NCBI RefSeq assembly: GCF_017308015.1
Contig: NZ_JAFKFW010000025.1
Span: 1-64,000, forward strand
Direction of reading: 5' to 3'
From: Allobosea sp.
Lineage (GTDB): Bacteria > Pseudomonadota > Alphaproteobacteria > Rhizobiales > Beijerinckiaceae
DNA length: 64,000 nucleotides
The stretch's first letter is position 1. Each line of letters opens with the position of its first letter. The notes beneath the pieces were generated by a model. That model did not search any database. It had not been told where the DNA came from and saw only the letters and a list, made by a program, of their open reading frames with translations. A program made the position numbers and the translations under genes. Below are positions 27,742 through 45,563 of this stretch, one piece after another.

Positions 27742-27826
27742 GCGGTCGTGGCGGAATTGGTAGACGCACTACCTTGAGGTGGTAGCGGGGAGACCCGTGG
27801 AGGTTCGAGTCCTCTCGACCGCACCA
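27742..27826 (+). tRNA. tRNA-Leu (GAG)
   Basis: 85-nt tRNA with an extended variable arm and encoded CCA. The acceptor pair is GCGGTCG at the start and CGACCGC at the end. The anticodon stem is CTACC/GGTAG with loop TTGAGGT, so the anticodon is GAG (leucine, CUC/CUU). The TTCGAGTCC T-arm is intact. The 3' part, from the last two bases of the anticodon stem onward, is duplicated at 43218-43277, so this gene is the integration site of the island. Confidence 0.97.
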
Positions 27827-27831
27827 AATTC
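27772..27831 (+). repeat. Left attachment-site direct repeat (attL-like, 60 bp)
   Basis: 60 bp from CCTTGAGGT of the anticodon region to AAATTC past the CCA, identical to 43218-43277. It begins in the anticodon stem, the usual crossover zone for tRNA-targeting tyrosine recombinases. The preceding base differs at the two ends (A here, G at the right), which marks the boundary. Confidence 0.93.
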
Positions 27832-27832
27832 A

Positions 27833-27942: not shown

Positions 27943-28953
27943 ATGGCCACCATCCGCAAGCATCGCGATAAATTCCAGGTCCGCATTCGCCGTAAGGATG
28001 CCCCTGCCCTAACCCGCACATTCGCCGCTTTCAGCGATGCCAAGGAATGGGCAACGCTGCAGGAGCGCAAGGCCGATAGAGGCGAATTGGGAGCGGATCG
28101 GAAAGAGCTAGAGAGAATCACTTTAGCCAAGCTGGTGGAGCGATACCGAGACGAGGTGCTCCCGATGAAGAAGGCGGAGACCGTGGAGCGGTACATCCTC
28201 AACGCCTTCCTCCGGCATCCGATTTGCAAGAAGCGTCTCTCCGACCTGACCACCGCCGATTTCGCCGCCTATCGCGATCAGCGCCTGCGAGAGATTTCGC
28301 CCGCGTCGCTTAAGCGGCAACTCACGCCGGTCCGTAACATGTTCAAGGTCGCCCGGATGGAATGGGACATCCCCTTGGCAAGCAATCCGCTCAACGGGCT
28401 CACTTTGAAGGCCCGAGATAATATGCGGGAGCGGAGACTGCAGGACGGGGAGTACGAGAAGCTGACGGCGTCACTCGCTAAAACTCGGAACCCGCTTCTC
28501 GCGCCGATTGTCAGGTTAGCACTCGCGACCGCGATGCGTAGGGGCGAAATACTCGCACTTCGACTGAGAGACGTCGATCTCCCGCGGAAGACCGCCATTA
28601 TCCGCGAGGCTAAGAACGGCCACTCGCGGAGTATCCCCCTTACCTCCGCAGCGATCCAGGCGGTTCAGGAGGCTATTGCTCTGACTCTGCCCGGCACAGG
28701 CGACAGATTGTTTCCCATCGCCCCTGCAGCCCTCCGAGAGGCCTGGGACTGCGCGACGAGTCGGGCGGAGCTGGAGGACCTCCATTTCCACGACCTCCGA
28801 CACGAAGCGATCTCGCGGCTCTTCGAGTTAGGTCTAACCGTTCCAGAGGTAGCTTCGGTCAGCGGACATCGTACAATGTCACAGCTGATGCGATATGCGC
28901 ACGCGAATGCGCACTCGCTGCGAGCGAAGCTGGACAGCGCTCCGTCCCGGTGA
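27943..28953 (+). CDS. int: Tyrosine recombinase (integrase)
   Basis: 336 residues. N-terminal arm-binding and core-binding regions, then the catalytic domain with Arg in TAMRRGEIL, the HFHDLRHEA block carrying the second Arg, GH in SGHRTMS and the nucleophile Tyr in MRYAHAN. All four catalytic features are present, so the enzyme looks active. Start ATG at 27943, 112 bp past the left repeat. The neighbouring tRNA repeat identifies it as the recombinase that integrated the island. Confidence 0.95.
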   Translation: MATIRKHRDKFQVRIRRKDAPALTRTFAAFSDAKEWATLQERKADRGELGADRKELERITLAKLVERYRDEVLPMKKAETVERYILNAFLRHPICKKRLSDLTTADFAAYRDQRLREISPASLKRQLTPVRNMFKVARMEWDIPLASNPLNGLTLKARDNMRERRLQDGEYEKLTASLAKTRNPLLAPIVRLALATAMRRGEILALRLRDVDLPRKTAIIREAKNGHSRSIPLTSAAIQAVQEAIALTLPGTGDRLFPIAPAALREAWDCATSRAELEDLHFHDLRHEAISRLFELGLTVPEVASVSGHRTMSQLMRYAHANAHSLRAKLDSAPSR

Positions 28954-29436: not shown

Positions 29437-29628
29437 ATGAAAACATTCATCAGACTTCCCGAAGTAAAGCAAATGATTGGAATCTCGGCAACATCGACGC
29501 TTTACGACTTGATACGAAATGGTCGTTTTCCAAAGCCAATCAAGCTTAGCCCACGGGTCTCCGTGTGGGATTCCGAGCAAATCCAAAATTGGATGGCGGA
29601 ACGCGCATCAAAGAGCGTCGCGGCTTAG
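29437..29628 (+). CDS. AlpA-family DNA-binding regulator/excisionase
   Basis: 63 residues: IRLPEVKQMIGIS then TSTLYDLIRNGRFPKPIKLS and VWDSEQIQNWMAER. This is the winged-helix MerR-like AlpA fold found next to integrases, acting as excisionase or activator of the island's excision. Start ATG at 29437; an upstream in-frame ATG at 29401 gives a less likely N-terminus. The tandem repeats upstream are candidate binding sites. Confidence 0.85.
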   Translation: MKTFIRLPEVKQMIGISATSTLYDLIRNGRFPKPIKLSPRVSVWDSEQIQNWMAERASKSVAA

Positions 29629-29647
29629 TTATAGAGGGGATTACACT

Positions 29648-29995
29648 ATGAATAGGCAGGACAAATATCGAAGCTCCTCCATCCAGAATTTCACTCAGGC
29701 CGAATTGGACAAGGCGCGGGACAATCTCGCGTTCGTGAAGCGCCGGTTCCCGGAGGAGTCGGCGAGAGAGCAGGCTGTTATCAGAGAGAAAGGTCTGGAA
29801 GATCACCGTGAAGTAATTTCGCACTACATTCGCTTTAAATCTCCGATGACGGAGCGCGAACTTGGCGTACTGCAGATGTTCGCCGATACCAGTTACGCGG
29901 GGAGTTTCGGTCGCGGCGAGCAACACGAAGCTGCAGGCGGCTCAAGCCCTGCTGATATTCTCTATCGGCCCGCCATCAAGCCAGATGGTGCATGA
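29648..29995 (+). CDS. Island hypothetical protein
   Basis: 115 residues from ATG at 29648 with AGAGGGG upstream. Hydrophilic and helix-rich: FTQAELDKARDNLAFVKRRF and PEESAREQAVIREKG. No motif recognised. It lies 19 bp after the AlpA gene and overlaps the start of the next gene (29992), so probably co-transcribed. Confidence 0.6.
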   Translation: MNRQDKYRSSSIQNFTQAELDKARDNLAFVKRRFPEESAREQAVIREKGLEDHREVISHYIRFKSPMTERELGVLQMFADTSYAGSFGRGEQHEAAGGSSPADILYRPAIKPDGA

Positions 29996-30303
29996 TGGAG
30001 TCTTTGAGATGCCTTCTTGCCGAGATCGACACAGCGTTTCGCCTCGGCGACTACGCCGACTGCCTCCATGGGCTCGGCGTGATTGAGCAAAATATCGAGG
30101 CGCTGACGCAGGAGCCTGACGCGCTGTTTCGGCTAAGCCGAGGGCTAGCCGCATTACGCATGCTCCATGCCCAGCATGAACGGGAAGGTCGGACCGCCCT
30201 CGCCGCTGACGCCGCCCGCCGGATCGCGGAGGTCGAGCAGCGTGTTGCCGAGCTAGCCCGATTGGCGGAGGCGGAAATGCGGCAGCGAGGTGGGGCGAAC
30301 TGA
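29992..30303 (+). CDS. Island hypothetical protein, coiled-coil
   Basis: 103 residues. ATG at 29992 overlaps the stop of the previous gene. Strongly helical, with the heptad-like AARRIAEVEQRVAELARLAEAEM suggesting a coiled coil near the C-terminus. No family recognised. The next gene starts 13 bp after its stop, which supports one operon. Confidence 0.6.
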   Translation: MMESLRCLLAEIDTAFRLGDYADCLHGLGVIEQNIEALTQEPDALFRLSRGLAALRMLHAQHEREGRTALAADAARRIAEVEQRVAELARLAEAEMRQRGGAN

Positions 30304-30316
30304 GAGGCGGTTGCGG

Positions 30317-31918
30317 ATGAAGGTATTTTCTCTCGAAGAAGCACGGGACCGGCTCCTTAAAGAGACGGGGCCGGTCAAGGAGCGGGATTGGCTCGTCCCC
30401 CAGGCAACGGCCTCATCGCCAACCAATCGCCCTGCACTGGAGTTCAACGAGACGCGGCCCGATTTAGCGATTCGGAAAGCTGCCGAGGTTCTGTTGGAGG
30501 CTGGACTGCCGCTTTATCTCCGACTCGGCCGCCTCGTCTGGCTGCGAGAAGTTGCATCTAAGGACTGGGAGCGGAAGCCGCTCATCGTGAAACGCTTCGC
30601 GGACGAGGCGATGAAGGAAAACCTGCGAGATGAACTAAGCCAATTGACGGACTGGCGGGGACGGAATGGAAAAGCCATCCCGGTTCCGCCACCCGTCTAC
30701 AATATGATGCCCGAGCTTGCGTGGAAGCTGGGCGTCGTGCCCGAGGTCGAAGGGCTCTTCATGGCGCCGACGCTCAGACCTGATGGAACGGTGCTGCTGC
30801 GCGAGGGGTATGACGCGGCGACTCGGCTGCTTCTCGTAGACGTGCCGAGGTTGCCAGCCATTCCCGACCGGCCAAGCCGAGCGGACGCGGAGGCGGCGCT
30901 TGTTGCGTTGAAGGGTCTGCTTCGAGAATTCCCATTCCGAGATGAAGCGGATCAATCCGTCGCGTTGGCGCTCATCCTCGCAACCGTGGTGCGCGGAGCC
31001 TTGGGGCATATCCCCCTGACTGTGATTCAGGCGCCAGAGAAGGGCTCGGGCAAATCCTTCCTCGTGGATATTGCGAACGTGATAGCGACCGGGCAGCGCT
31101 GCTCGGTAGTCGCCGCGCGATCGGAGGTCGAAAAATGGGAAAGGCAGATCGCGCTGAGCGTCGCGAGCGGCGATCCCATCGTGTCCCTCGACAATTTCAA
31201 CGGGGAGCTCAAAAGCGATTTGCTCGCCCAGTTGGTCACGCAGACGAAGGTGAAGGCGCTGCTGCCGTACGGCCGGGACATGGTGGAACTTGAGTGTCGG
31301 TCCGTGCTCACGGTCAACGGGAACGGCGTGCGAGTCGCCGATGACCTTGGCCGGCGAGTTGTCCTTTGTCGGCTCGACGCTGGAATGGAGCGGCCTTGGG
31401 AGAGGGCGTTCGAGGGGAGGCCGCTGGACGAGATCGGCCGGAACCGCGGACGCTACATCGCAGCGGCGCTGACAATCGTCCGGGCGTACCTCGCGGCGGG
31501 AGAGCCAGTGGACCTCGAGCCGCTGAACGGTTTCGAGGACTGGGGTCGGTTCGTGCGCGGCCCGCTGGTGTGGCTGGGGCAAGTCGATCCAGCAGCGACG
31601 CAGGCCAATGCGATGAGGGACGACACTGGCCTGCAGAGCCTGGGCGTCGTCTTCGCGGCGATGGCTGAGGCGTGCGGAGTGGGCGAGGACAATGCCCGGA
31701 CACTCAACGAGATGCTCGGCGATGCGCCCGCTGGGCGGGATGGCGAGTGGGCCAGATTACAGGACGCGTTCGCCGAGGCGGTTGCCCCAAAGCCGCTAAC
31801 CCCATTGAGCCTGGGCCACGCTCTGCGGAAGGCAGCTAACCGCGTGATCGGCGGCCACCGGTTGAGGAACCGAAGCAATCGGCTGGGAACGAAGGAATGG
31901 TGGATCGACCGCGCGTAG
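30317..31918 (+). CDS. P-loop replication ATPase (primase/helicase-like)
   Basis: 533 residues from ATG at 30317. Walker A is in APEKGSGKSFL (lysine about residue 246) and a Walker B-like acidic pair in VSLDNFNGEL (about 290). NGNGVRVADDLGRRVVLCRLD fits the sensor/arginine region of phage-type superfamily 3 or DnaB-like primase-helicases. The C-terminal TPLSLGHALRKAANRV region ends in KEWW, a winged-helix-like tail. No zinc-finger primase domain is seen at the N-terminus, so helicase/ATPase is safer than primase. The stop is followed at once by the iteron cluster. Confidence 0.75.
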   Translation: MKVFSLEEARDRLLKETGPVKERDWLVPQATASSPTNRPALEFNETRPDLAIRKAAEVLLEAGLPLYLRLGRLVWLREVASKDWERKPLIVKRFADEAMKENLRDELSQLTDWRGRNGKAIPVPPPVYNMMPELAWKLGVVPEVEGLFMAPTLRPDGTVLLREGYDAATRLLLVDVPRLPAIPDRPSRADAEAALVALKGLLREFPFRDEADQSVALALILATVVRGALGHIPLTVIQAPEKGSGKSFLVDIANVIATGQRCSVVAARSEVEKWERQIALSVASGDPIVSLDNFNGELKSDLLAQLVTQTKVKALLPYGRDMVELECRSVLTVNGNGVRVADDLGRRVVLCRLDAGMERPWERAFEGRPLDEIGRNRGRYIAAALTIVRAYLAAGEPVDLEPLNGFEDWGRFVRGPLVWLGQVDPAATQANAMRDDTGLQSLGVVFAAMAEACGVGEDNARTLNEMLGDAPAGRDGEWARLQDAFAEAVAPKPLTPLSLGHALRKAANRVIGGHRLRNRSNRLGTKEWWIDRA

Positions 31919-31933
31919 CGTGAGCCGGGTATG

Positions 31934-32126
31934 GCTGCTGGGGTTGCTGGTGTTGCTGGTGATGTTTCCAAAAGCGTTCGGCGCCCTTTCCCTTCGCACC
32001 AAAATTTATTGTGGGTTTATATCACCAGCATCCCCAGCAATTCTATAAAATTTCAATAAAATCAATTGTTTATGGCGCATGCGATGGCCGAAAATTGATC
32101 CCCGGCTATCCCCAGCATCACCAGCA
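31934..32126. other. Candidate replication origin: iteron cluster around AT-rich DNA
   Basis: 9-bp units A[TA]C[AC]CCAGC: three on the minus strand at 31934-31963, two on the plus strand at 32022-32039, two at 32108-32125. The first 20 bp TTGCTGGTGTTGCTGGTGAT matches the reverse complement of 32021-32040 at 18 of 20 positions. The sequence between the second and third sets (about 32040-32080) is AT-rich with runs of A and T. This sits directly after the ATPase gene. Iterons plus an AT-rich unwinding zone are the standard origin layout, but function is inferred. Confidence 0.6.
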
Positions 32127-32137
32127 GAGGAACGAAT

Positions 32138-32560
32138 ATGAACGAGGAAGTCAGCCCGGCTATAGGCGCCCTGCTCGACCTAATGACCAATCCCAGCCTG
32201 ACAATAGGCCAGCGCATCGAAGCCGCCCGCGCGATTATCGAGTTTGAGGCTCCGCCGGCCGTTTTCGAACTCGCCCGCTCTTTCCTGATGGGGGTCGCTG
32301 AGAACGCGGACTTCGATCTGAAGATCAGGGCGCTTCAGCTGGTCCGCAAAGTTGAGGCCCGTCGAGTCGTGCCCGGCGAAGGGCAGGCCAAGCATGATGT
32401 CGCGCTGGCCGAGCGGATGGCTGCGGCGCGGGAACGATTAGCCGCGCGGGCCGAAGGGCGGTGGACCACACCTAACGTTGAATCGCTCGCTGAACACGTC
32501 GAGGGCAATGGGCTGGCGGCAAGGTTGCAGCGGGCGAGGCTAAGCAGCTTGCGGACATAA
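32138..32560 (+). CDS. Island hypothetical protein
   Basis: 140 residues with AGAGGAACG upstream of ATG at 32138. Helical, with many Arg and Ala (AERMAAARERLAARAEG). No motif recognised. It follows the origin-like region and is followed by the gene at 32624 with 63 bp between. Confidence 0.6.
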   Translation: MNEEVSPAIGALLDLMTNPSLTIGQRIEAARAIIEFEAPPAVFELARSFLMGVAENADFDLKIRALQLVRKVEARRVVPGEGQAKHDVALAERMAAARERLAARAEGRWTTPNVESLAEHVEGNGLAARLQRARLSSLRT

Positions 32561-32623
32561 GATGACTGGTACAAGCTGCTGAATCAACGCTTATCAGGCT
32601 CGTTTCAGGATTAGAGGGTACGA

Positions 32624-32947
32624 ATGTTCGGATGGCTCAAAGATAAGCAGATCAAAGAGCAGAAGAAATTATTGTTCCAGAATAGCGCTGCGTCCAAGGT
32701 GCTTGCAGGCTTCTATCTAGCAACCGGCGACAGCGCGAATGGCGCGCGCATGGAAGCTCATGAGGAACAGAATCGCCTCATTGCGCTATCCGTTGACGAG
32801 GATGCCAAGATTGATGCTGCCGATCTCAAAATCGCCCTTGATATCAATCAGGATTTGAGAAAGCACCATCAGCGCTCGTTGCCGATGAATGGTCCTTTTG
32901 ATGAGATATATCGGCCTATGCTTGGCTGGGATAAATATTTCGAATAA
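32624..32947 (+). CDS. Island hypothetical protein
   Basis: 107 residues from ATG at 32624. N-terminal helix with Lys-rich start (MFGWLKDKQIKEQKKL), hydrophobic residues at 25-35 (KVLAGFYLATG) and a C-terminal WDKYFE. No motif recognised. The base composition is lower in GC than the core genome. Confidence 0.55.
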   Translation: MFGWLKDKQIKEQKKLLFQNSAASKVLAGFYLATGDSANGARMEAHEEQNRLIALSVDEDAKIDAADLKIALDINQDLRKHHQRSLPMNGPFDEIYRPMLGWDKYFE

Positions 32948-33020
32948 ATCGATCATCCAAAGATTCGGATTGTTTCTTTATAATTAGACTGAATATCGAC
33001 CATTAATCGAGGGCGGCGTT

Positions 33021-33212
33021 TTGAAGCTACTATTTGCTGTACTGCCCTTGTTCGCCGCAACGGCGCTGATGTTTCTAGCAGTACGCCTAATTCCCCCTGA
33101 GAGAGGGAAATCAGACCCTGAAGTCGAGATCAAAACTCGTCGCGATTTAGTTATTTCTTTGATTGCCGCTGTGGTCGTTGTCGGCCTAGTCATTTGGGCA
33201 ATAGTCAAATAA
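33021..33212 (+). CDS. Small two-helix membrane protein
   Basis: 63 residues starting with TTG at 33021 (GAGG upstream). Two hydrophobic segments (about residues 3-23 and 43-62) flank a charged loop, RLIPPERGKSDPEVEIKTRRD. Function is unknown; the hairpin-like topology is compatible with many small membrane proteins. Confidence 0.5.
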   Translation: MKLLFAVLPLFAATALMFLAVRLIPPERGKSDPEVEIKTRRDLVISLIAAVVVVGLVIWAIVK

Positions 33213-33238
33213 CGAGCAGAAGACCGAAGCGCTTGCCT

Positions 33239-33808
33239 TCAGGACGTCGCGCCTCGTCTCAATATCCGAAACACGCTCGCCCGCCCGATCCCTAGCTTCC
33301 CGGCGATGGCATCTCCGCTTTCCCCACTCGCCCGCAACGCCATCACCTCGTCCGCCTTCGCCCGCGCAGTCGGCGATCGCCCCTTGTACTTCCCCTCCGC
33401 CTTCGCCTTAGCGATGCCCTCGCGCTGACGTTCGAGCATCAGGTCCCGCTCAAAGGCGGCAATGCCGCCGAGGACGGTTAGCATCAGTTTCCCGGTAGGC
33501 GTGCCCGTGTCCACGTTCATCGACAAAATACGAAGCGTGACACCGTTGGCCTCCAGGTCTTTGGCGATCTGCAGAAGGTCGGAAGTAGATCGCGCCAGCC
33601 GGTCCGGCTTGGTCACGATAAGCGTATCACCCTCTCGCAGATACTCCAGCGCTCGGTCCAACTCCGGCCGCTTCGTCGCAACGGCGGAAAGCTCCTCATG
33701 GAATAGTTTCGCGCAGCCCGCCGCCCGCAGGTCGCGCAACTGCGCCTCCAGTCCGGCCTTCTGGTCGGTCGTCGAGGTGCGGGCATAGCCCACCGTTTGG
33801 CCCGTCAT
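33239..33808 (-). CDS. Serine recombinase (resolvase/invertase family)
   Basis: 189 residues from ATG at 33808 (MTGQTVGYARTS). The catalytic Ser is in YARTSTTDQ; the conserved Arg/Asp region is in KPDRLARSTSDLL, and GKLMLTVLGGIAAFERDLM is typical of the family. The C-terminal helix-turn-helix is RASGESGDAIAGKLGIGRASVFRIL. It probably resolves co-integrates or inverts a segment; targets unknown. TGATAC repeats lie immediately upstream (33844-33936). An extra in-frame ATG lies at 33820. Confidence 0.9.
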   Translation of the reverse strand: MTGQTVGYARTSTTDQKAGLEAQLRDLRAAGCAKLFHEELSAVATKRPELDRALEYLREGDTLIVTKPDRLARSTSDLLQIAKDLEANGVTLRILSMNVDTGTPTGKLMLTVLGGIAAFERDLMLERQREGIAKAKAEGKYKGRSPTARAKADEVMALRASGESGDAIAGKLGIGRASVFRILRRGATS

Positions 33809-33843
33809 CACTGGCTCCATCGGCTCACAAAGTTAAGGAATCA

Positions 33844-33936
33844 GTGATACAACAGTCTCAAAATAGCAAGTGCCATTCTTATGATACTACGAGGGTGCGA
33901 CTTTTATCGTATCACTAGGGCTTGCCCAATTGATAC
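33844..33936. promoter_or_regulatory. TGATAC repeats upstream of resolvase (candidate res site)
   Basis: TGATAC occurs at 33845-33850, 33882-33887 and 33931-33936, and inverted as GTATCA at 33909-33914. Four copies of a hexamer in under 100 bp beside a serine recombinase resemble res subsites. Not seen elsewhere in the flanks I checked. Inference only. Confidence 0.45.
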
Positions 33937-34672
33937 TGCTGCGCGGGGCGATGAGGAGAAGGGTTGAAAATGACCTCACATTCTCGACAGCGGAGCCATA
34001 TCCACCGGCATTGATGACGGACCACGATCGGGAAACGGGGCATCAATACGGCGCCGGTCCGGTGGCGCGCGACGGCGTCAATGCGGAGAAACGTGGTGCG
34101 GGTTAATTACGCCGGAACCGCCCCCCACGGCCACGCCACGCGTTCGAGCCATATCGTCCGGTGGCCGGACAGGCCATACCGTCTGGGCCGGAAAGTATAG
34201 AAGCGTCAGCGGAGCCGGGAACGGCCCTGGCAGCGTTAGGATCGTCGTTCGCTCTTTGCCGGGAACTCGCGGCGCAGGGTCGTCACAAAAAGCGAACCCC
34301 ACCCCCCTCTTTTTTCAATCCGGCATACCCGGCTTTCGCCGATGCCGCCCCGCCTCTCGCGCCTACTACGACCTTCTGCCGCAGAGCGGATTTTTCGAGG
34401 ATATGGCTCGACCTCGGCGCTGGTCACGCGGAATTGCTCTGCACTTTCAAACGTCGCCGAAGCCGCTGATCGTCCCTAGCCGTTTCCGTGGTTGAAGCGC
34501 ATCGCGCCTCGAGTGGAAGCTGTGATTTCGTTTAAGAGCGGACTTGGCATTGCGTTGTCGAACATGGTCAACGTCCCTAAGCATCAACGTCGTCTTCCGC
34601 GCTCACCAAACCGTGTGCTAATCTTTCTTCCAGCTGCGATTCCGCTGGAGCGGCGCTGAGGGGCACCGCCGT
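33937..34672. other. Gene-free region between resolvase and restriction operon
   Basis: No gene supported. Open frames here (34078-34302 and 34161-34469, on both strands) overlap each other and lack family motifs. A palindrome GTCCGG/CCGGAC sits at 34156-34170, followed by GGACAGGCCATACC, close to GGACAAGCCATACC at 29016-29029. The end of the region should hold the restriction operon promoter, but I see no clear -35/-10. Confidence 0.5.
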
Positions 34673-37600
34673 ATGGGTTTTGCTGATAATCCGATCATCA
34701 CCTCGCCGTTCGACAAGCCGAATTGGCATTTCGAACTCGACAATGACGGCCAGCCGACCGGCGCCAAGCTGGCGGGACGTCGTGAGAGCGTTCAGGTCGT
34801 GCCGGTCGCCGCGAGTCGCCGACGGTCTAACCTTCAAGGTTCGCTGGCGCTGGACGATACCACGGGCGGATCGCGAGTCACGACGAATGCACTCGTCAAT
34901 GAAATCCGAACGCACGTGGATCAATGGCGCGCGTTGCCTCCCAGCCAATGGGGGGTAACGCCGGAGACGCAGCGATTGCTCCTGCATTGGCGCGATGAGG
35001 ATCGGACGCGAAAGCTCTTCTTCTGTCAGCGAGAGGCAGTTGAGACGCTGATCTATCTTACCGAAGTCGCGCCGGGCCGATTCAAGAGGCAGATCGAAGA
35101 CGCCAACGCCGAGGCCAATCCGGGTCTCTATCGGCTTGCTTCGAAAATGGCCACCGGTTCCGGAAAGACAACCGTGATGGCGATGATCATCGCGTGGCAC
35201 GCTGTGAATAAGGCGCGCCGTTCCGGCTCAAAGCTCTTTTCGAACGCCTTCCTCATTATCGCCCCGGGCATCACTATCCGCGAGCGTTTGCGCGTTCTGA
35301 TGCCTGAAGCGCCGGACAATCTTTATGAGGCCCTGAACATCGTCCCGACGGACATGATGGACGGCGTTCGTAAGGCGCGGGTTGTGATTACCAACTATCA
35401 CGCCTTCATGCTGCGCGAAACCGAGCAGGTTTCGAAACTCAACCGGCGAATCCTCGGCGGACGCGACGGCGAGAAAAAGTTTACGGAAACCGAAGGCCAG
35501 ATGATCGCGCGCGTTGCGCCCGAGCTCATGGGTCGCAAGGGCGTCATCGTCCTCAATGATGAAGCCCATCATTGCTACCGCCACAAAGTCGGCGGGGATG
35601 AAGAGGTCCTTTCGGCGGAAGACCGTCGGGAAGCCGAACAGAATGAAAAGGCCGCGCGCGTATGGATCGGCGGTGTCGAGGCATTTGACCGCAAGATCGG
35701 TGTCCGCGCAGTCTATGACGTGTCAGCCACGCCTTTCTTCCTGCGCGGCTCGGGCTATCCAGAAGGAACCCTGTTCCCGTGGGTGGTGTCGGATTTTGGA
35801 CTGCTGGACGCCATCGAGAGCGGCATTGTCAAGGTGCCGCGTTTGCCAGTGCTGGACGACTCCATCCAAGGCGATTTGCCGAAATTCAGGAACGTCTATG
35901 AGCATGTGAAGACGAGCTTACCAAAGAAGGGGCGCGGCAAACAGGCCAAGGCGCTAATGGACCCGCAGAAGCTCGATAGCCTGCTTCTTTCGGCAATTGA
36001 CGCCCTCTATCGTCACTATGAAAAGACCTTCGCGGCCTGGAAGCGGGAGCCCGAGCTTGGCCGGCCGCCGGTATTCATCGTCGTTTGCAACAACACTGCC
36101 ACCTCGAAACTCGTCCATGACTGGATCGCGGGCTATGAGGTGACGGAAGGCGAAGGCGAAGCGAAGCAATCCCGCAAGGTACCGGGCGCGCTTCGCCTGT
36201 TCTCCAATATCGACGACAATGGCCGAGAGATCGGTCGAAGGCGAACACTGCTGATCGACAGTGAACAGCTGGATAGCGGCGACGCGCTTTCCGACGATTT
36301 TCGCAAGATCGCGGCGCGTGAGATTGAAGACTTCAAAAACGATTTGCGCCGACGCGGCGACGGCCGCGACCTAGAGAAACTGACGGACGCGGACATTCTT
36401 CGCGAGGCAATGAACACGGTCGGCAGACCCGGCAAGCTCGGTGCTGACATTCGCTGCGTCGTATCCGTTTCGATGCTGACCGAAGGGTGGGACGCGAACA
36501 CCGTCACACACATCATGGGTGTGCGCGCATTTGGCACGCAGCTTCTTTGCGAGCAGGTAGTGGGGCGCGGGCTTCGCCGTGTGTCCTATGAGGTGGACCC
36601 AGCCACGGGTCACTTCCCGGTCGAGTACTGCGATGTCCTGGGCGTGCCCTTCACCTTCGCCCAACAAGGCGCGAACGTCGCGCCAAAAGCACCGCCGCGC
36701 GTCACCCGTGTACGTGCGATGGATGATCGAGTTCAATGGGCGATCCGCTTCCCGAATGTCGAGGGCTATCGCATTGTCTTTCCGCGCAAGCCGTTGAAAG
36801 CCGTCTTCACGAAGGATAGTGCACTTGTGCTGTCGCCGGACAACATTCCCATGCGAACGGAGGTGGAGCCATTCATTGGCGAAGGCTTCACACTCGATTT
36901 GCGCGAGCACGCTGATAAGCTGCGGCTGAAGTCTGTCATCTTCGACGTGGCGGGTTTCCTGTTGCGGGAAAAGTTCCGCGACGCTGACGGCAACCTCGAA
37001 GTCTGGCGCTATCCCGAGTTGGTCCGTATCACGGAAAACTGGTTCGCCCAGTACTTGAAACCCATCGGCGGCTTCCGGCCCGAATTTTTGAAATGGCGCT
37101 CGCTTGCGATCATGGCGGTTGAGAAAATCCACCGCGCGCTCGCAGCTTCCATCCCCGCGCCACCCGACGGATCGGAAGAGCACGGGCTTAAGTTGCCGAT
37201 TCTGAACCCGTACAATCCTGAAGGCTTCTCCCAGAATATCGACTTCAACACGTCCAAGACGACGCTGTTCGATACGCGGGACGGAAAATGCCACCTAAAC
37301 TTCATCGTGGCTGATCAGGACTGGGAGGCGGGCTTTGCGACGCAACTCGCGGCCATCCCTGAGGTCATCGCCTATGTGAAAAATCACAATCTCGGCTTCG
37401 AGGTGCCTTACGAGCATCAGGGCGAAACGCGGCGCTACCGGCCGGACTACATCGTGCGGGTGGACGACGGCGCGCCCGAGCCGCTGAACCTTGTGGTTGA
37501 GATCAAGGGCCTTCGCGACGGGCGGGACGCGGCCAAGGCCGACACGATGGCGAAGCTCTGGATTCCCGCCGTGAATAACGCCAAGGTTCACGGACGCTGG

Positions 37601-37681
37601 GACTTCCTCGAATTCAAGGACATTCCATACGACGTCGAAGCGCGCATCCGCGCTTTCGTGCGCACGCGCATGGCAGCATGA
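34673..37681 (+). CDS. Type III-like restriction endonuclease subunit (helicase plus PD-(D/E)XK nuclease)
   Basis: 1002 residues. Superfamily 2 helicase: Walker A MATGSGKTT (lysine about residue 165), DEAH in LNDEAHHCYRH (about 295), motif III SATPFF and motif VI VGRGLRR. A C-terminal PD-(D/E)XK nuclease has RPDYIV (about 924) and VVEIKG (about 943). This is the layout of Res-type subunits; the BPTD_3080-like restriction family is the closest group I know. It is co-oriented with the gene of unknown function and the methyltransferase, ten bases to the next ATG. It should cut unmethylated DNA using ATP. Confidence 0.9.
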   Translation: MGFADNPIITSPFDKPNWHFELDNDGQPTGAKLAGRRESVQVVPVAASRRRSNLQGSLALDDTTGGSRVTTNALVNEIRTHVDQWRALPPSQWGVTPETQRLLLHWRDEDRTRKLFFCQREAVETLIYLTEVAPGRFKRQIEDANAEANPGLYRLASKMATGSGKTTVMAMIIAWHAVNKARRSGSKLFSNAFLIIAPGITIRERLRVLMPEAPDNLYEALNIVPTDMMDGVRKARVVITNYHAFMLRETEQVSKLNRRILGGRDGEKKFTETEGQMIARVAPELMGRKGVIVLNDEAHHCYRHKVGGDEEVLSAEDRREAEQNEKAARVWIGGVEAFDRKIGVRAVYDVSATPFFLRGSGYPEGTLFPWVVSDFGLLDAIESGIVKVPRLPVLDDSIQGDLPKFRNVYEHVKTSLPKKGRGKQAKALMDPQKLDSLLLSAIDALYRHYEKTFAAWKREPELGRPPVFIVVCNNTATSKLVHDWIAGYEVTEGEGEAKQSRKVPGALRLFSNIDDNGREIGRRRTLLIDSEQLDSGDALSDDFRKIAAREIEDFKNDLRRRGDGRDLEKLTDADILREAMNTVGRPGKLGADIRCVVSVSMLTEGWDANTVTHIMGVRAFGTQLLCEQVVGRGLRRVSYEVDPATGHFPVEYCDVLGVPFTFAQQGANVAPKAPPRVTRVRAMDDRVQWAIRFPNVEGYRIVFPRKPLKAVFTKDSALVLSPDNIPMRTEVEPFIGEGFTLDLREHADKLRLKSVIFDVAGFLLREKFRDADGNLEVWRYPELVRITENWFAQYLKPIGGFRPEFLKWRSLAIMAVEKIHRALAASIPAPPDGSEEHGLKLPILNPYNPEGFSQNIDFNTSKTTLFDTRDGKCHLNFIVADQDWEAGFATQLAAIPEVIAYVKNHNLGFEVPYEHQGETRRYRPDYIVRVDDGAPEPLNLVVEIKGLRDGRDAAKADTMAKLWIPAVNNAKVHGRWDFLEFKDIPYDVEARIRAFVRTRMAA

Positions 37682-37690
37682 GGCGCAACG

Positions 37691-38902
37691 ATGCTCGGCT
37701 CGGCATTATATTATCCACACATAGACATCGACGACGGCGAATGGCTCCGCTCGGCAGTATTGTTTTGGGACGAGATCAAAACCATCGCGCCACGCGCGAT
37801 TGCGCAACCCTATCGGAATTCCGACACCAACATTCTATGGCGCGAAGGCTTCATTGAACCGCTGCGTTGCGACTTACATCCAGAGTTACTTGATGTCCTC
37901 GGCAAGCGCGTTGTTGGTCTTGTGAATCGGGGCTTTTTTCAAGCGGACTTGGAGGCCGATCGCATGACGCGCGACCCCAATCGCTTCGCGCTGATGCACG
38001 CTGACAAGATCGGCATGGGAATTCGCGATCAGTTTCGATACGCCAACTTGCATCCTGAGAAACTAACGCCAGCCCTCCGAGCGCTCGCCATGCGGGCCGG
38101 ATTATCTCACATACATGCCGAAAAAATTGATCCCGAACTGCGTGATTTGCTGGACGAAATCCAGTTTGTCGCGATGCACCCGAATAAGATGTCTCGGCAG
38201 CTGGAGCATATGACGCGTCGTGTTGATCGGCGATTCAACAACGATGGCGAATGGCTGTTGGTCGATGACCGGTTCGCAGAAGTCTATATGGCCGCCCTCG
38301 CCGCACTGCTGTCGAAGGAAACAGAGCTAGCGGCGCTGACCAATGAAGAGCCTTCGATGGGCGTGAACCTCCACACCTTATTGGATGACGTAAAGCCTTC
38401 ATCGCAGTCGGATAAGAAGGGAGCGCTTATTTCATTCGTCATGGAGGCGCTTCGCGTCGATCCGGAGACGCGCGTCGACAAGCTTCTGGCGTTTCGGCGC
38501 GCTCGCAAGGTCCAACTTGCGGAACTATCCGGACATTTCGAAGAATTGTCTGCCAAGATCGTCGCCTGCGAAAACAGCAAGGAACTCAAAGAAAGAGCGA
38601 AACAGGTCTACCAGACACGCATTCGCCCCAAGTTGGAGGCGCTGAAGGACGAACTGACGGACAACTCGATCCAGGCCGTGTGGGAGGGCGTCCAGCGTGC
38701 CGTCACGGTCTCCGTCCCTGCCGGCGGAGCGCTGGCATATTTCACAGGGCTGACTGGCACGACGCTCCTAGCGGCAGGCGCGGCAATTTCAGTCACGGAC
38801 GTAGCCGTGAAGACCCACCTCGCGCGGAACAAGGCTCGCCGCGCATCGCCCTTTACGTATTTGCTCGATGTCGAGCGCAAATTCTCAGTGCGTGATTTCT
38901 GA
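37691..38902 (+). CDS. DUF6236-like protein within the restriction-modification operon
   Basis: 403 residues. The N-terminus LYYPHIDIDDGEWLRSAVLFWDEI is close to the DUF6236 start (YYP plus WL, LFWD). The middle is helical and charged. Residues about 345-375 (VPAGGALAYFTGLTGTTLLA then AAISVTDVAV) form a hydrophobic stretch that could be a membrane hairpin. No catalytic motif recognised. Its stop overlaps the methyltransferase start by one base (TGATG), so the three genes are one operon. The role in the restriction system is unknown: accessory subunit or separate effector are both possible. Confidence 0.7.
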   Translation: MLGSALYYPHIDIDDGEWLRSAVLFWDEIKTIAPRAIAQPYRNSDTNILWREGFIEPLRCDLHPELLDVLGKRVVGLVNRGFFQADLEADRMTRDPNRFALMHADKIGMGIRDQFRYANLHPEKLTPALRALAMRAGLSHIHAEKIDPELRDLLDEIQFVAMHPNKMSRQLEHMTRRVDRRFNNDGEWLLVDDRFAEVYMAALAALLSKETELAALTNEEPSMGVNLHTLLDDVKPSSQSDKKGALISFVMEALRVDPETRVDKLLAFRRARKVQLAELSGHFEELSAKIVACENSKELKERAKQVYQTRIRPKLEALKDELTDNSIQAVWEGVQRAVTVSVPAGGALAYFTGLTGTTLLAAGAAISVTDVAVKTHLARNKARRASPFTYLLDVERKFSVRDF

Positions 38903-41730
38903 TGGCCAAATCTCCCAAGCCCACCGATGTCGATCACTTCGCCCATGGCGGCGCGAAGCGCTACAACATTCCGACGGCGGAAAATCAGGGCCTCGTGCCG
39001 GACGACGACAAAGCGGTGAAGGTGCTGCGCTATCCGCGCAACCCTGACCTTGACCCGCAACTCGTTTGGCGCGGGAAGGATGCGGAGGACGCTGGCGATT
39101 TGGAAGTGGCTGCGCCGCCGGTCTTCATTCAGGAGAAAATCCATCCGCGCGCGCTGATCGAGAATTTGCGCAAACAGTCCAAAGCGCGGCGAAACGATGC
39201 AGCCCCGCAAATCGACTTCTTCCATGACTTCAACGGCCTGCCCGAAAGCTGGAAGGAGGACGCGACTGAAAGCTACTACCATGACGAGGGCAAGTGGTCT
39301 AACCGGATGATCCTGGGGGACAGCCTGCTTGTCATGGGCAGCCTTGCTGAGCGCGAAAAGCTGCGGGGCAAGGTTCAATGCATCTATTTCGACCCGCCCT
39401 ACGGGATCAAGTTCAACTCCAATTGGCAGCCCTCGACGAAAAACCGGAAGGTGGACGAAGGAAAGAGCGCTAGCGTCAGTCGAGAGCCTGAGGTAGTGCG
39501 CGCATTTCGAGATACTTGGAATGATGGAATACACTCATACCTGAGTTATCTCCGTGATCGAGTTCAGGCATGTCGAGAGCTGCTGACTGAATCAGGAAGT
39601 TTTTTTGTTCAAATTGGAGTAGAGAATTCTCATCTCGTTCGTTCAATTTGTGACGAGGTATTCAGGCAAGAAAACTATATTTCAGAAATTTCGATCCAAA
39701 AGACAGGTAGCCAAAGCGGGGATTTTATTCAATCAAATCATGACATCATAATTTGGTATGCGCGCAATAAAGAGCATGCGAAATCATACTACAAATCAAT
39801 TTTTCTCGAAAGAGATGGCAAGCCGTCGCCTGATGATTTGAAGAAAAACACTTTAGACCGAGATGATTTTGGCGCGTACCCCCTCACATCGGACGGCTAT
39901 CGTGAGACTACAACGGTAGATTTCAATCATGAAAATCAGAAATTTCATCCGGGAGCGGGGCGTCATTGGGGCGTGACAGTCCCAGAGCTAGAAAGAGTGG
40001 CGCGGGCGGGTCGTATTGTTAAGCAAGATAAGCAAGTACGACTTCGGTATTTTTGGGACGACTACCCAGTAATGTCTCTTGGGTCATATTGGAATGACGT
40101 TGGTGGCGCGTCTGGAAAGGTATACGTCGTACAGACAACCCCCAAAGTTATTGAACGCTGCCTGTTAATGACTACCAGGCCTGGCGATCTCGTAATGGAT
40201 CCTACGTGCGGTTCCGGCACTACGGCCTTTGTAGCGGAGCAATGGGGACGACGCTGGATCACTATCGACACAAGCCGGGTTGCGCTGACGCTGGCCCGTG
40301 CCCGGCTGATGGGCGCGAAGTTCGACTTTTATCATCTCAAGGACAGTAAGACCGGCGCGGCGGAAGAGGCGAAACTAACTGGCAGGCCGCCAGCCGAGGG
40401 GCCTTTCATCGACGATATTCGGCAAGGCTTTGTCTACAAGCGAGTGCCGCATGTCACGTTGAAATCAATAGCGAGTAATTTAGAAATCGACGTTATCTGG
40501 GAGAAGTTTCAGACCCGGATGGAGCCGTTCCGCAGCGCGTTAAATAGCGCGCTCGGGCGCAAGGACGCATGGGAGGAGTGGCAAGTCCCGCGCGAGGCGG
40601 ATACCAAGTGGCCTGCCGCCGCGCGCGAGGCCCATGTCGAATGGTGGCGCCTTCGCCGTGAGCGCCAAGCCGAGATGGACGCCTCCATCGCCCGAAACGC
40701 CGATGTCGAATACCTCTATGACCAGCCAATCCCCGCGAAGGGCGTCGTGCGCGTCGCCGGGCCGTTCACGGTGGAAAGCCTCTCGCCGCATCGTGTGCTG
40801 CCCTTGGGCGAGGACCCGTTCCTTGCCGAGATGCTTGGTGCCGACGATGGGGCGGACGTCGAACCGGAGCCAATGCAGGAAGCGGTGCCGCCGACGGACT
40901 TCGCGCAAATCGTCTATGAGAACCTGCTCGCCTCGGGCGTGCAGAATACCAAGAAAGGTGAAACGCTAAAATTCGATTGGCTGAAGCCTCGCGTCTCGCG
41001 CTCGGGCCTTGTGCCATTCGAGGGGCAGTACCTCGAAAACGGCGAGGTGCGCCGTGCCGGCATCTGCATCGGCCCGGAATATGACACAGTGGGCTTCGAT
41101 CTCGTGCAGCGCGCCGTCAAAGAGGCGCGCAATGCCTTCTTCGACGCTCTGATCATCTGCGGATTCGCTTTTGCCCCTGAGGTGGATGACACGCGGCTCG
41201 ATTTCCCCATCACCGTGCTCAAGGCCCGCATGAATCAAGACTTGCGCATGGGGGACAAGCTCAAGGCGACGGGCGCGGGTAATCTCTTTGTCGTGTTTGG
41301 CGAGCCCGACATCGTGACCCGCAAACTGGACGGCGACATGGTGCAAGTCGAAATCCGGGGCATGGACATTTTCGATCCGACCACCGGACAGGTGCGATCC
41401 TCGCGGCCTGTCGCTGAGATCAAGGCCGCAATGGCCGCGGATCCCGAACTAACTGCGGACCAATTCTCCGACATCCGCAACGACGTGGCGGCATGGTTCA
41501 TCGACGATGATTACGACGAAGACAACTTCTTCGTGCGGCAAGCTTATTTTGTTGGCGATAGTCCATACGAGGGCCTCAAGCGGGCATTGAAAGCTGAGAT
41601 CGATGAGACGGCATGGGAGGACATGAATTCCACCATTTCACGCCCATTTGCGCGACCCGCGAGGGGGAGCATTTGCGTGAAGGTAATCAACCATTTCGGC
41701 GACGAAGTGCAAAAGGTGTTCGTGGTATAG
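38902..41730 (+). CDS. Type III-like DNA adenine methyltransferase (Mod)
   Basis: 942 residues. Amino-methyltransferase motif IV DPPY (about residue 164, in YFDPPYGIKF) comes before motif I DPTCGSGTT (about 433), the beta-class order used by type III Mod proteins. The interval between them is expected to hold the target-recognition region. That interval (about 39480-40240) is AT-rich: my hand count gives 119 G+C in 300 bases at 39541-39840, against 42 in 60 at 40621-40680. The mosaic suggests exchange of specificity. It protects host DNA and should work with the helicase-nuclease subunit upstream. Confidence 0.9.
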   Translation: MAKSPKPTDVDHFAHGGAKRYNIPTAENQGLVPDDDKAVKVLRYPRNPDLDPQLVWRGKDAEDAGDLEVAAPPVFIQEKIHPRALIENLRKQSKARRNDAAPQIDFFHDFNGLPESWKEDATESYYHDEGKWSNRMILGDSLLVMGSLAEREKLRGKVQCIYFDPPYGIKFNSNWQPSTKNRKVDEGKSASVSREPEVVRAFRDTWNDGIHSYLSYLRDRVQACRELLTESGSFFVQIGVENSHLVRSICDEVFRQENYISEISIQKTGSQSGDFIQSNHDIIIWYARNKEHAKSYYKSIFLERDGKPSPDDLKKNTLDRDDFGAYPLTSDGYRETTTVDFNHENQKFHPGAGRHWGVTVPELERVARAGRIVKQDKQVRLRYFWDDYPVMSLGSYWNDVGGASGKVYVVQTTPKVIERCLLMTTRPGDLVMDPTCGSGTTAFVAEQWGRRWITIDTSRVALTLARARLMGAKFDFYHLKDSKTGAAEEAKLTGRPPAEGPFIDDIRQGFVYKRVPHVTLKSIASNLEIDVIWEKFQTRMEPFRSALNSALGRKDAWEEWQVPREADTKWPAAAREAHVEWWRLRRERQAEMDASIARNADVEYLYDQPIPAKGVVRVAGPFTVESLSPHRVLPLGEDPFLAEMLGADDGADVEPEPMQEAVPPTDFAQIVYENLLASGVQNTKKGETLKFDWLKPRVSRSGLVPFEGQYLENGEVRRAGICIGPEYDTVGFDLVQRAVKEARNAFFDALIICGFAFAPEVDDTRLDFPITVLKARMNQDLRMGDKLKATGAGNLFVVFGEPDIVTRKLDGDMVQVEIRGMDIFDPTTGQVRSSRPVAEIKAAMAADPELTADQFSDIRNDVAAWFIDDDYDEDNFFVRQAYFVGDSPYEGLKRALKAEIDETAWEDMNSTISRPFARPARGSICVKVINHFGDEVQKVFVV

Positions 41731-41975
41731 CCGATACAACTGAAGCAATCGAAGTATGGAGTGCAATGAGCGGCGAAGCCAAAAGTATCGCTGGGGTGAT
41801 ATCTGCGCGCAGATGCCGAACGAACGGGGGATAAGAAGACCTAGGTCGACGGCGGCCGCAAGCATGAGCCCACGACGGACAACATTCGCCAAGCTTGGCC
41901 TGAACGATTTTATGGCTGCGACACAAAGCCATCGAAGGCAAGTGCCTCACCTGTCGGCAGATTGGTAGTGGCTGA
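41731..41975. other. Gap between mod and IS remnant
   Basis: No gene supported. It contains a tight cluster of AvrII, SalI and NotI sites at 41838-41857. Open frames in both directions lack family motifs. Confidence 0.5.
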
Positions 41976-42485
41976 CCTGAGACCCTTTTCTCCTCTGACC
42001 TGAGGGAGAGTTCTGGGTTAGGTGATCCGAGACCATTTGCTGGACAGCCGGAAGGTAGAGTTTCCGGCCTTCGATCACGACGGTGGGCTGGGTGCTCCGC
42101 CGGGATTCTGCAGCAGGATCGGGGGCTTGTTGCCGATGGCCCCGTGCGGCCGATCCTCGTTATAATATCTGAGCCAAACCTCCATCTTTTCGGCCGCGTC
42201 CGCAAGTGTCAGGAACCAGTGGGTGTTCAGGCATTCGCAGCGAAAGCGCCCGTTGAACGCCTCGATGAAAGCATTGTCGGTGGGCTTGCCCGGCCGCGAG
42301 AAGTCGAGCGTGACGCCCTTGGCATAGGCCCACAGGTCGAGATCGCGGCTGACGAACTCGGAACCCTGATCGACCCGGATCGTCTTCGGATAGCCCAGTC
42401 TCGCGCAGACGCGTTCCAGCGTGACGACGCCGGTCTGCTCACACTGCCGCATCCGCCGGACCACTCGGCGGCCATCCAACCTCAG
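41976..42485 (-). mobile_element. Remnant of an IS3-family insertion sequence
   Basis: The transposase 3' end and an end-like sequence TGACCTGAGACC (from 41976, a related TGATCCGAGACC near 42020) are present. The 5' part, including the upstream frame and first catalytic Asp, is missing. The other boundary (about 42480-42490) is not marked by an inverted repeat, so this is a truncated, probably inactive copy. Confidence 0.75.
42075..42479 (-). pseudogene. IS3-family transposase fragment (DDE domain, C-terminal part)
   Basis: Retains the second Asp in TIRVDQGSEF, the conserved GRPGKPTDNAFIEAFNGRFR block with the catalytic Glu (FIEAF) and the YYNEDRPHGAIG tail. The N-terminal frame and the first catalytic Asp are lost; upstream residues read as non-homologous. 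It cannot be an active transposase. Confidence 0.85.
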
Positions 42486-42517
42486 TATCGCTGCTTACTC
42501 TTCGATCACTCTGCGTT

Positions 42518-42934
42518 TCAGGATGACGGTGTCTTCATGTTGATCCAGCTCCAAAATGAGTGAAGCCGATTCGACCAACGGTGGGTGAAGATCAAAAACC
42601 CCAGCGCCAGAGACCAGATTGCAAATCGTACGGCTTCTCGACCCGACATCTCTGCTTCCAAAGATGCAGCCCAATAGGCTTGGTAGTTCGTGCAGTTCAC
42701 CCAATCCTGGAACGTATGCGGCGCTAACGATTTAACCCCATCTCCGAAGAACGGGCTCTTCGTCAGCAGAGTTTTGCAGTCTGGGATAAACGGCGCGCGC
42801 AGTCGCCACATATCGTAAGCAGACCAGCAAGCGACAGCAAGAAAGTACACGCCCCCTGCAACGAGCAGCAGCCAAAATACGAATGCCACTCGGCGCCATC
42901 TAGTATTTAATCGCGCTTGAGCAGCCGCCCACAT
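42518..42934 (-). CDS. Small membrane protein of unknown function at the island's right end
   Basis: 138 residues from ATG at 42932-42934 (AGGGG upstream). Two or three hydrophobic segments (residues about 17-36 and 102-118), a periplasmic-type loop with Cys pairs (IPDCKTLL and WVNCTNY) and a basic, Trp-rich tail. The longer open frame reaching 43609 crosses the right repeat and the terminator, so the shorter start is correct. Function is unknown. Confidence 0.65.
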   Translation of the reverse strand: MWAAAQARLNTRWRRVAFVFWLLLVAGGVYFLAVACWSAYDMWRLRAPFIPDCKTLLTKSPFFGDGVKSLAPHTFQDWVNCTNYQAYWAASLEAEMSGREAVRFAIWSLALGFLIFTHRWSNRLHSFWSWINMKTPSS

Positions 42935-43217
42935 TTTCTGGCCCCTGTGCTGAATCCAATGGCGACCATACCTTTCCCCGTCCACCGGACAAGACTCTGC
43001 CCGGTCGGAAGAATGGGTACGAGCACAGGTAATCCCGGTCCCACTCTGGTCCCACTCACTGGCGCCAACGATGTCCCGGACTCGAAAGCGCTCACTACCC
43101 TTGCCTCGATTCGGCAAGCGAGTTAGCTTCCGTATACAGTTGAAATCATATGAGTTTCGGGAAGGGATTTGGCGCCAATCCAGCCATCGCGCGAGCACGA
43201 TCTCCATGAGATTTTTG
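42935..43217. other. Right-end DNA of the island up to the attachment repeat
   Basis: No gene seen. GGTCCCAC, TC, ACTGGCGCCA at 43048-43067 matches the left copy GGTCCCACACTGGCGCCA at 27913-27930 with a two-base insertion. A further GGTCCCACTCT precedes it at 43037-43047. These may be integrase arm sites. Confidence 0.45.
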
Positions 43218-43277
43218 CCTTGAGGTGGTAGCGGGGAGACCCGTGGAGGTTCGAGTCCTCTCGACCGCACCAAATTC
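43218..43277 (+). repeat. Right attachment-site direct repeat (attR-like, 60 bp)
   Basis: Identical to 27772-27831. It contains the anticodon loop, T-arm and CCA end of tRNA-Leu but no 5' half, so it is not a functional tRNA. The island ends here. Confidence 0.93.
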
Positions 43278-43488: not shown

Positions 43489-44475
43489 ATGAACGCCCGC
43501 CGCATGCCCCGTTTCCGTGCCCTGCCCCTTCTGGCTGCCGCCGCTTTCGCGGTGCTCGGCGGCTGCGTGGCGCTCGACAGCTACCCGTCGAAAGGCGATG
43601 CCCGGCCACATCCCGGCGTCGCGGCGGCGCATAACTACCCGATCCATGGCATCGACATCTCGCGCTGGCAGGGCGAGATCGACTGGAGCGCCGTCAAGGC
43701 GGCCGGCACCCGTTTCGTCTACATGAAGGCGACGGAGGGCGGCGACCATGTCGACCCGACCTTCCGGCGCAACTGGGAAGGCGCGCGCCGCGCCGGCATC
43801 CCGCGCGGCGCCTATCATTTCGTCTTCTGGTGCCGCCCGGCCCATGAGCAGGCGGTCTGGTTCAAGCAGCAGATCCCGAACGATCCCGATGCGCTGCCGC
43901 CGGTGCTCGACGTCGAGTGGAACGGCCATTCGCGGACCTGCCCGCAGAAGATCGATCGCGAGCTCGCTCGCGAGAAGATCGCGCTCATGCTGACCGAGCT
44001 CGAGCAGCTCACCGGCAAGAAACCGGTGATCTATACCGATATCACCTTCCATCGCGAGGTGCTGGAGGGGCAGTTCAACAACTACCCCTACTGGATTCGC
44101 TCGACCGCAGCCCTGCCGGAAGCGCGCTACAGCAACCGCCCCTGGGCTTTCTGGCAGTTCACCACCACAGGCCGCGTGCCCGGCATCAAGGGCGACGTCG
44201 ACCGCAACGCCTTCTTCGGCAGCGAGAGCCAGTTCGCCGGCTGGCTACGCGGCGAATACGATATCGGCACGCGCCGTTGGGATCGTCGCGAGGGGCCCGC
44301 ACAGCCTACGCCGGTCCAGCAAACGCCGCTGCCTCCCCCCTCCGCACCGTCTGTCCCCGCCGAGCCGCAGGAGCCAAGCGACGTGCCCGTCGCGCGCATC
44401 CCCGGCAGCGTGCCGGCCGTCGCCTCGACCATGCGGGCCATGGACAATCAGCTCGAGCCCGTCGTCCTCGACTGA
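43489..44475 (+). CDS. GH25 lysozyme-like lipoprotein (first of tandem pair)
   Basis: 328 residues. Signal with lipobox (LGGCVA). GH25 fold: HGIDISRWQGEIDW, KATEGGDHVDPTF, YHFVFW and the acid PVLDVEW, with conserved DVDRNAFFG near the C-terminus. Pro-rich tail. GH25 enzymes cleave the peptidoglycan MurNAc-GlcNAc bond. A paralogue follows at 44595. Start ATG at 43489. Confidence 0.9.
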   Translation: MNARRMPRFRALPLLAAAAFAVLGGCVALDSYPSKGDARPHPGVAAAHNYPIHGIDISRWQGEIDWSAVKAAGTRFVYMKATEGGDHVDPTFRRNWEGARRAGIPRGAYHFVFWCRPAHEQAVWFKQQIPNDPDALPPVLDVEWNGHSRTCPQKIDRELAREKIALMLTELEQLTGKKPVIYTDITFHREVLEGQFNNYPYWIRSTAALPEARYSNRPWAFWQFTTTGRVPGIKGDVDRNAFFGSESQFAGWLRGEYDIGTRRWDRREGPAQPTPVQQTPLPPPSAPSVPAEPQEPSDVPVARIPGSVPAVASTMRAMDNQLEPVVLD

Positions 44476-44594
44476 GCGGGCGGTCGAATCGCGCCGGTTA
44501 ACCAAGGCTGAAATTCATTGTTCGACTGCGTCGCAATTCTAACCGGCGTTTAACCACGCTCCCGGCATCTGGACCTGTGATGCGGGAGAAACAC

Positions 44595-45563
44595 ATGCCA
44601 GCGCGCAAGCTGACCAGCGGACGGATCGGGCTGAAAGCCCTCGCCTTCGCGGCTCTGATGTTAGGTCTCGTCGAGCCGGCGCAGGCGCTCTACCCGAAGA
44701 AGGGTGACAGCGCTCCGCATCACGGCGTGCGCGACGCACGGCGCAAGGTCATCCAGGGCATCGACGTCTCCCGCTGGCAGGGAGAGATCGACTGGCAGAA
44801 GGTCAAGGGCGCGGGCACGCGCTTCGCCTTCATCAAGGCGACCGAGGGCGGCGACCATCTCGACCCGAATTTCAAGCGCAACTGGGCCGAGGCGAAGAAG
44901 CACGGCGTCGCGCGCGGCGCCTATCATTTCGTCTGGTGGTGCCGCTCGGCCAAGGAGCAGGTGCGCTGGTTCAAGAAGCACATCCCGCGCGATCCCGACG
45001 CGCTGCCGCCGGTGCTCGACGTTGAATGGCAGAACGGTTCGCAATGCACCCGCAGGATCTCGAAGGAGCTGGCGCTCGCCAAGATCGCGGAGATGCTGAA
45101 GGGCCTGCGCGAACACACCGGCAAGAAGCCGATCATCTATACCGACATCAATTTCCACGAGGACGTGCTCGAAGGCGAGCTCAACGATCACCCCTTCTGG
45201 CTGCGTTCGACGGCTGCGCCGCTGGCGAAGCGCTACGAGCGCGACCGCTGGGAGTTTTGGCAGTTCACCACCACCGGCCGCGTTCCGGGCATCACCGGCG
45301 ATGTCGACCGCAATGCCTTCTTCGGCAGCGAGCGTGAATTCGACGCCTGGCGCCAGGGCCGCTTCGACATCGGTTCGCGCAAATGGCATGGCAGCGAGCC
45401 CAAGGTCGCGGCACGAACGCCGCCGCCCACTCCGGCAGGCTTGCGTGCGCCCAGGGAAGCCGGCGGCACCAGGCTGAAATTTGCCCCGCCCGGCCGCATC
45501 CCGAACGCGCGCACGGCCGATAACCGCCGTGCCGACGTGACGGGCTCGATCGCAAGGGACTGA
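44595..45563 (+). CDS. GH25 lysozyme-like secreted protein (second of tandem pair)
   Basis: 322 residues from ATG at 44595 with GGGAGAA upstream (earlier in-frame codons lack an SD). Signal peptide to AQA, no lipobox Cys. Same GH25 block as the preceding gene (GIDVSRWQGEIDW, KATEGGDHLDPNF, YHFVWW, PVLDVEW), with charged tail. The pair shares exact motifs, so it is a duplication; the first is lipid-anchored, the second probably free. Confidence 0.9.
   Translation: MPARKLTSGRIGLKALAFAALMLGLVEPAQALYPKKGDSAPHHGVRDARRKVIQGIDVSRWQGEIDWQKVKGAGTRFAFIKATEGGDHLDPNFKRNWAEAKKHGVARGAYHFVWWCRSAKEQVRWFKKHIPRDPDALPPVLDVEWQNGSQCTRRISKELALAKIAEMLKGLREHTGKKPIIYTDINFHEDVLEGELNDHPFWLRSTAAPLAKRYERDRWEFWQFTTTGRVPGITGDVDRNAFFGSEREFDAWRQGRFDIGSRKWHGSEPKVAARTPPPTPAGLRAPREAGGTRLKFAPPGRIPNARTADNRRADVTGSIARD

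Follow-up and report, generated by a model that had tools for sequence, protein, structure and literature searches.

What is a gene of the DUF6236 type doing between the restriction and the modification gene of a type III-like operon, and does it work with them? The question arises in the window, by which we mean the whole stretch of 64,000 nucleotides that was analysed, from Allobosea sp. (contig NZ_JAFKFW010000025.1). A first-pass annotation had placed a DUF6236-like gene between res and mod, with a one-base overlap to mod, and both points are borne out by the ORFs and junctions of the operon:

34673..37681, forward strand: res, an ORF of 1002 aa encoding a helicase-nuclease of the BPTD_3080 family
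37678..37693, forward strand: res/DUF6236 junction, with ATGA on the res stop, a 9-bp gap and then the DUF6236 ATG
37691..38902, forward strand: DUF6236 gene, an ORF of 403 aa, occupant of the res-mod slot
38900..38904, forward strand: DUF6236/mod overlap, TGATG, a one-base stop/start overlap
38902..41730, forward strand: mod, an ORF of 942 aa encoding a DNA methyltransferase

Judging from its motifs and family matches, the operon is a type III-like restriction-modification (RM) system of the BPTD_3080 family. Type III Res proteins are defined by SF2 helicase motifs and a C-terminal PD-(D/E)XK motif, and the window Res has both, as GSGKT, DEAH, QVVGRGLR and a C-terminal RPD...EIK found by pattern, in addition to a ResIII domain (Pfam). 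It matches BPTD_3080 (NCBIfam NF046055) with 1146.9 bits, against a curated cut-off of 800, while the type III Res models of PADLOC match it weakly and no PDB relative was found at E 0.01. Mod carries DPPY at residue 164 and DPTCGSGT at residue 433; its DPPY precedes the SAM-binding motif, which is the order of beta-class methyltransferases. It matches the N6_N4_Mtase family (Pfam, 1.1e-30), the PADLOC model MTase_III (931 bits), the Mod subunit of EcoP15I (4zcf, 2.6e-13) and another Mod (6k0w, 4.7e-14). The operon thus resembles EcoP1I and EcoP15I in combining a Res helicase-nuclease with a Mod methyltransferase, but differs from them in having res before mod and a gene in between. The three genes probably share one transcript, and the position of the DUF6236 stop over the mod start would couple its translation into mod. 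Promoter and terminator scans gave matches no more frequent than in shuffled sequence.

In classical EcoP1, mod stands before res. The promoter of res lies inside mod in that system, according to PMC3874151. Compared with EcoP1/EcoP15 the "reversed order" noted in the first-pass annotation is real, but as an anomaly it does not stand. The Res family was surveyed in 80 loci: 64 from genomes (searches of 289, 61, 398 and 297 partly overlapping genomes; of these 64, 63 score above the cut-off of the family), 15 from plasmids (part of 39 plasmid records matched) and the window. The survey contains near-duplicates (e.g. L099/L100, L043/L044 and L137/L155) and one locus, L157, with a match under the cut-off and a Res out of frame. 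The order is res then mod on one strand in 60 loci, mod then res in 14 and unreadable in six, which have no mod in the DNA examined. Since 60 of the 74 readable loci are res-first, this order is normal in this Res clade and was discarded as the odd feature of the operon. Parsimony on a quick Res tree with long branches, above all that of L157, gives raw counts of 13 changes between occupied and empty slots, 36 changes of cargo and two changes of order.

The res-mod junction is more variable. Counting at this junction alone, with a mechanical threshold of at least 55 aa that may misplace some starts and miscall some small ORFs, the slot is occupied in 43 of the 60 res-first loci, window included, by 56 ORFs (one to five per locus) that fall into 28 BLASTP clusters at 1e-4. 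The other 17 loci have an empty slot, with res-mod gaps of -1 to 167 bp, and in four of them res and mod overlap by one base. The final cargo gene ends no more than 30 nt from the mod start in 42 of the 43 occupied loci, with the exact one-base overlap in 21, and 17 have a first cargo gene whose start forms ATGA with the res stop. As a minor observation, the slots of L127 (five ORFs) and L144 (four ORFs) have two gene families in common, PDDEXK_4 and one without a name.

The closest relatives found show three states of this slot. The nearest Res, that of L152, is 76% identical to the Res of the window, and its slot holds a different protein of 227 aa which does not cluster with DUF6236; it resembles a PD-(D/E)XK nuclease by eye only and has no Pfam or PADLOC match. 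Similarity between the two loci at the DNA level runs from the start of res to 37650, breaks, and resumes at the mod start codon (38902) to continue to the mod stop (41730); no match was found outside res and mod. A further lapse of similarity inside mod, at 39663-40149, lies between the two methyltransferase motifs, where one would look for a target-recognition domain. A frame change after residue 127-135 divides the mod of L152 (L152:8699-11547), which has 76% identity to the window Mod over residues 1-127 and 64% over residues 128-942 in a different frame, so this copy may be decaying or misread. The viral contig L176 has a Res 67% and a Mod 60% identical to those of the window and an empty slot. 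Outside the 80 loci, the Res-bearing viral contigs L177, L178 and L180 also have no gene in the slot, and in L179 the res-mod region is shortened and rearranged. The best argument for exchangeable cargo at the junction is that DUF6236, another gene or nothing stands at one and the same place in the nearest relatives identified. With an empty slot in a 67% relative and an unrelated gene in a 76% relative, related Res/Mod pairs exist without DUF6236.

The identity of the cargo was sampled by a Pfam scan that covered 20 of the 56 ORFs and a PADLOC scan of 10. Half of the 20 exceed the cut-off of a Pfam family (GmrSD_N, NYN, Bro-N in two, PIN in two, REase-ARP/PDDEXK_13, PDDEXK_4, HepT-like and FRG), seven of them of nuclease or toxin types, and the matches of the other 10 are weak or absent. 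PADLOC matches at E <=0.001 were obtained for five of the 10 ORFs scanned, and none for the other five. Four of the 10 match the defence-candidate models PDC-S11 (1.1e-93), PDC-S42 (8.2e-18 and 3.8e-4) or PDC-M55C (PDC-M55C/HEC-05, 6.5e-31 and 1.5e-22), and there is a weak match to NYN (1.8e-6). The PDC families are putative candidates proposed by a guilt-by-embedding approach, as PMC12988326 describes them.

A different picture is obtained by following DUF6236 itself. The first-pass annotation had seen in it a possible co-effector or sensor in a defence system, and a genome check for its co-occurrence with Res/Mod covered 30 other DUF6236 loci: 25 genome contigs, three viral contigs and two plasmids, including two (L074 and L075) whose matches cover only 34 and 18 residues. 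The flanks on both sides reach at least 500 bp in 26 loci, at least 1 kb in 22 and at least 3 kb in 16. Within this flanking DNA, a Res relative accompanies none of the 30 genes, and one locus, L071, has a weak Mod match of 50 residues from an N6_N4 methylase on the opposite strand. This outcome corresponds to the genomic part of what the first-pass annotation had named as refuting its idea. On these loci the role of a dedicated Res/Mod partner is not supported and was discarded; a defence role remains plausible, as that of an independent cargo. The closest DUF6236 relative (L051, Hoeflea marina, 83% identical) is separated from its neighbours on either side by about 300 bp. The genes of L004 (10001-11221), L077 and L078 lie among phage or prophage head and tail genes, as read by eye. 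Few relatives stand beside clear defence genes; that of L065 does, being preceded by hsdM and hsdS and followed by a Cap4 nuclease. In L066 a D12 methylase adjoins the gene. In the class-level sample of 289 genomes DUF6236 is rare, with two matches, the window's own and a weak partial one (G114).

The protein itself differs from the Pfam family DUF6236 (PF19749) in falling just under its cut-off, with 25.6 bits (23.1 in another scan) against 26.2, and in having four copies of an HxxK motif. The family is nevertheless matched at E <=0.1 by each of the 25 sequences aligned, that of the window among them, with 7.9e-13 as the best value. Two features can be placed on it:

37994..38236, forward strand: four copies of the motif [LIM]HxxK[LIM], with His at residues 103, 121, 142 and 163
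38723..38815, forward strand: moderately hydrophobic C-terminal stretch, residues 345-375

The histidines are spaced by 18, 21 and 21 residues (units within residues 103-168); four copies were reached in none of 100000 shuffles, and the relatives have from 0 to 5 HxxK matches. The hydrophobic stretch, from which membrane insertion had been proposed, does exist, but 54% of 68 control proteins attain the value of its 19-residue hydropathy peak (1.38 at residue 348). Insertion was therefore discarded as a strong feature and the case for it is weak, although the whole-protein peak falls in the C-terminal 110 residues of 27 of 28 sequences and is higher in several. No PDB relative was found (best E 1.8), nor any strong PADLOC match among 25 members of the family, of which one matches PDC-S39 at 0.0011; the best match of the window protein is JetA at 0.034.

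Several scenarios may explain these observations. We consider it fairly probable that DUF6236 is exchangeable cargo in the slot of an element-borne BPTD_3080 RM operon, and most likely an independent, single-gene, second-line phage defence. The operon is carried by a 15.4-kb element integrated in a tRNA-Leu, and its res-mod junction, a slot with differing occupants, would be a place where accessory genes come, go and swap; DUF6236, found elsewhere apart from Res/Mod, is its present occupant and would act alone against phages, without being an RM subunit. Counting against this reading are the lack of a strong PADLOC match for DUF6236, its single occurrence in the slot, the scarcity of relatives beside clear defence genes and the frame change in the mod of L152. 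Precedents exist for such an embedding: the gene lies between res and mod of a known defence system, like the candidates of the guilt-by-embedding approach, which are genes inside defence operons (PMC12988326), and like DarTG2, embedded between hsdS and hsdR of a type I locus (PMC12255303). Another unrelated defence or toxin gene inside a defence operon is PrrC in EcoprrI (PMC12707154). Unlike PrrC and DarTG2, which occur in type I loci, the window cargo lies between res and mod in a type III-like family, and unlike the PDC candidates, DUF6236 has no strong match among the PADLOC models.

The precedent of PrrC opens an alternative in which the Res/Mod complex would silence a toxin encoded in the slot and its inhibition by a phage would set the toxin free, as with EcoprrI. 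The layout is indeed like that of PrrC inside its type I RM locus (PMC12707154), the close stop/start spacing is kept over unrelated cargoes, and several of the families in the slot resemble toxins (PIN, HepT). Nevertheless, the linkage to be expected of a PrrC-like gene was not found, with no Res in the flanking DNA of any of the 30 other DUF6236 loci despite the hsdM and hsdS of L065, and the other cargo or lack of cargo in the closest Res/Mod backbones counts against a specific silencing contact; we regard this arrangement as improbable. A bolder version, in which the junction would be a dedicated effector socket that couples whatever gene lands there to the RM operon and fires it when restriction is evaded, strikes us as similarly doubtful; it would make DUF6236, the bearer of the HxxK repeat, a new class of effector.

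Another scenario grants the slot no function: it would be just a tolerated insertion point, and DUF6236 a passenger without a defence role, with a selfish or other one. DUF6236 occupies the slot in one case of the survey, the window itself, which leaves room for neutral hitchhiking, and elsewhere, in the 13 loci viewed, it stands alone in varied places, some of them amid ordinary-looking genes. Yet most occupied loci show a neat fit of the cargo to mod, and cargo that can be identified tends to belong to nuclease, toxin-antitoxin and defence-candidate families, so that we give this explanation little chance. The least likely role is that of a third subunit or regulator of the RM system, limiting Res until Mod has acted, for instance, for which the tight spacing, the one-base overlap with mod and the third gene reported at some type III loci (PMC8259958) speak, but against which stand the 67%-identical relative with an empty slot and the 76% relative with an unrelated gene in it. 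The m4C type III systems described in PMC8259958 resemble the window in having an additional gene, but theirs encodes a helicase/ATPase and lies 5' of mod, whereas DUF6236 has no ATPase match (Pfam) and is replaced by other genes at related loci.

No literature naming DUF6236 or BPTD_3080 was found. Among the matches listed from the literature on RM accessory and embedded genes, titles and abstract beginnings contain no description of a res-mod slot, and type III loci may be among those treated in the preprint on embedding. Should the slot prove general, screening the res-mod junctions of this Res family would yield many candidates for single-gene defences: the 28 slot clusters found here already include several without any family match. 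The natural presence of DUF6236, another gene or none on related Res/Mod backbones would also permit testing directly whether embedded genes work together with the RM enzyme or independently of it.

The carrier of the operon, the last part of the favoured exchangeable-cargo reading, is delimited by the following features:

27742..27826, forward strand: tRNA-Leu (GAG), the integration site
27772..27831, forward strand: left attachment repeat of 60 bp, the 3' part of tRNA-Leu and the next bases
27943..28953, forward strand: tyrosine integrase of the element (Pfam), adjoining the left repeat
30290..31918, forward strand: DNA polymerase/primase-like protein of the element
33239..33820, reverse strand: serine resolvase/invertase (Pfam)
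43218..43277, forward strand: right attachment repeat, identical to the left repeat at 60 of 60 positions

The element thus spans 15.4 kb (window 27772-43277) between perfect 60-bp direct repeats. Its right flank is present in 46 of 61 genomes, the window's own included. In six of the nine relatives' loci examined the left and right flanks meet with the same 60 bp as overlap, that is, the site is empty; in the other three the left flank is absent from the DNA examined, and none of the nine contains a match to element DNA. As the perfect repeats, the integrase and the empty sites in relatives show, the operon is cargo of an integrated element. Megablast found no relatives of it in phages; among plasmids it returned nine records, the best places being a short stretch at an IS3 remnant only. 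This IS3-type remnant, a short ORF with an rve_3 integrase core (42075-42479, reverse strand), lies inside the element and adjoins mod. Just to the right of the element, two adjacent and similar genes of 328 aa occupy 43489-45563.
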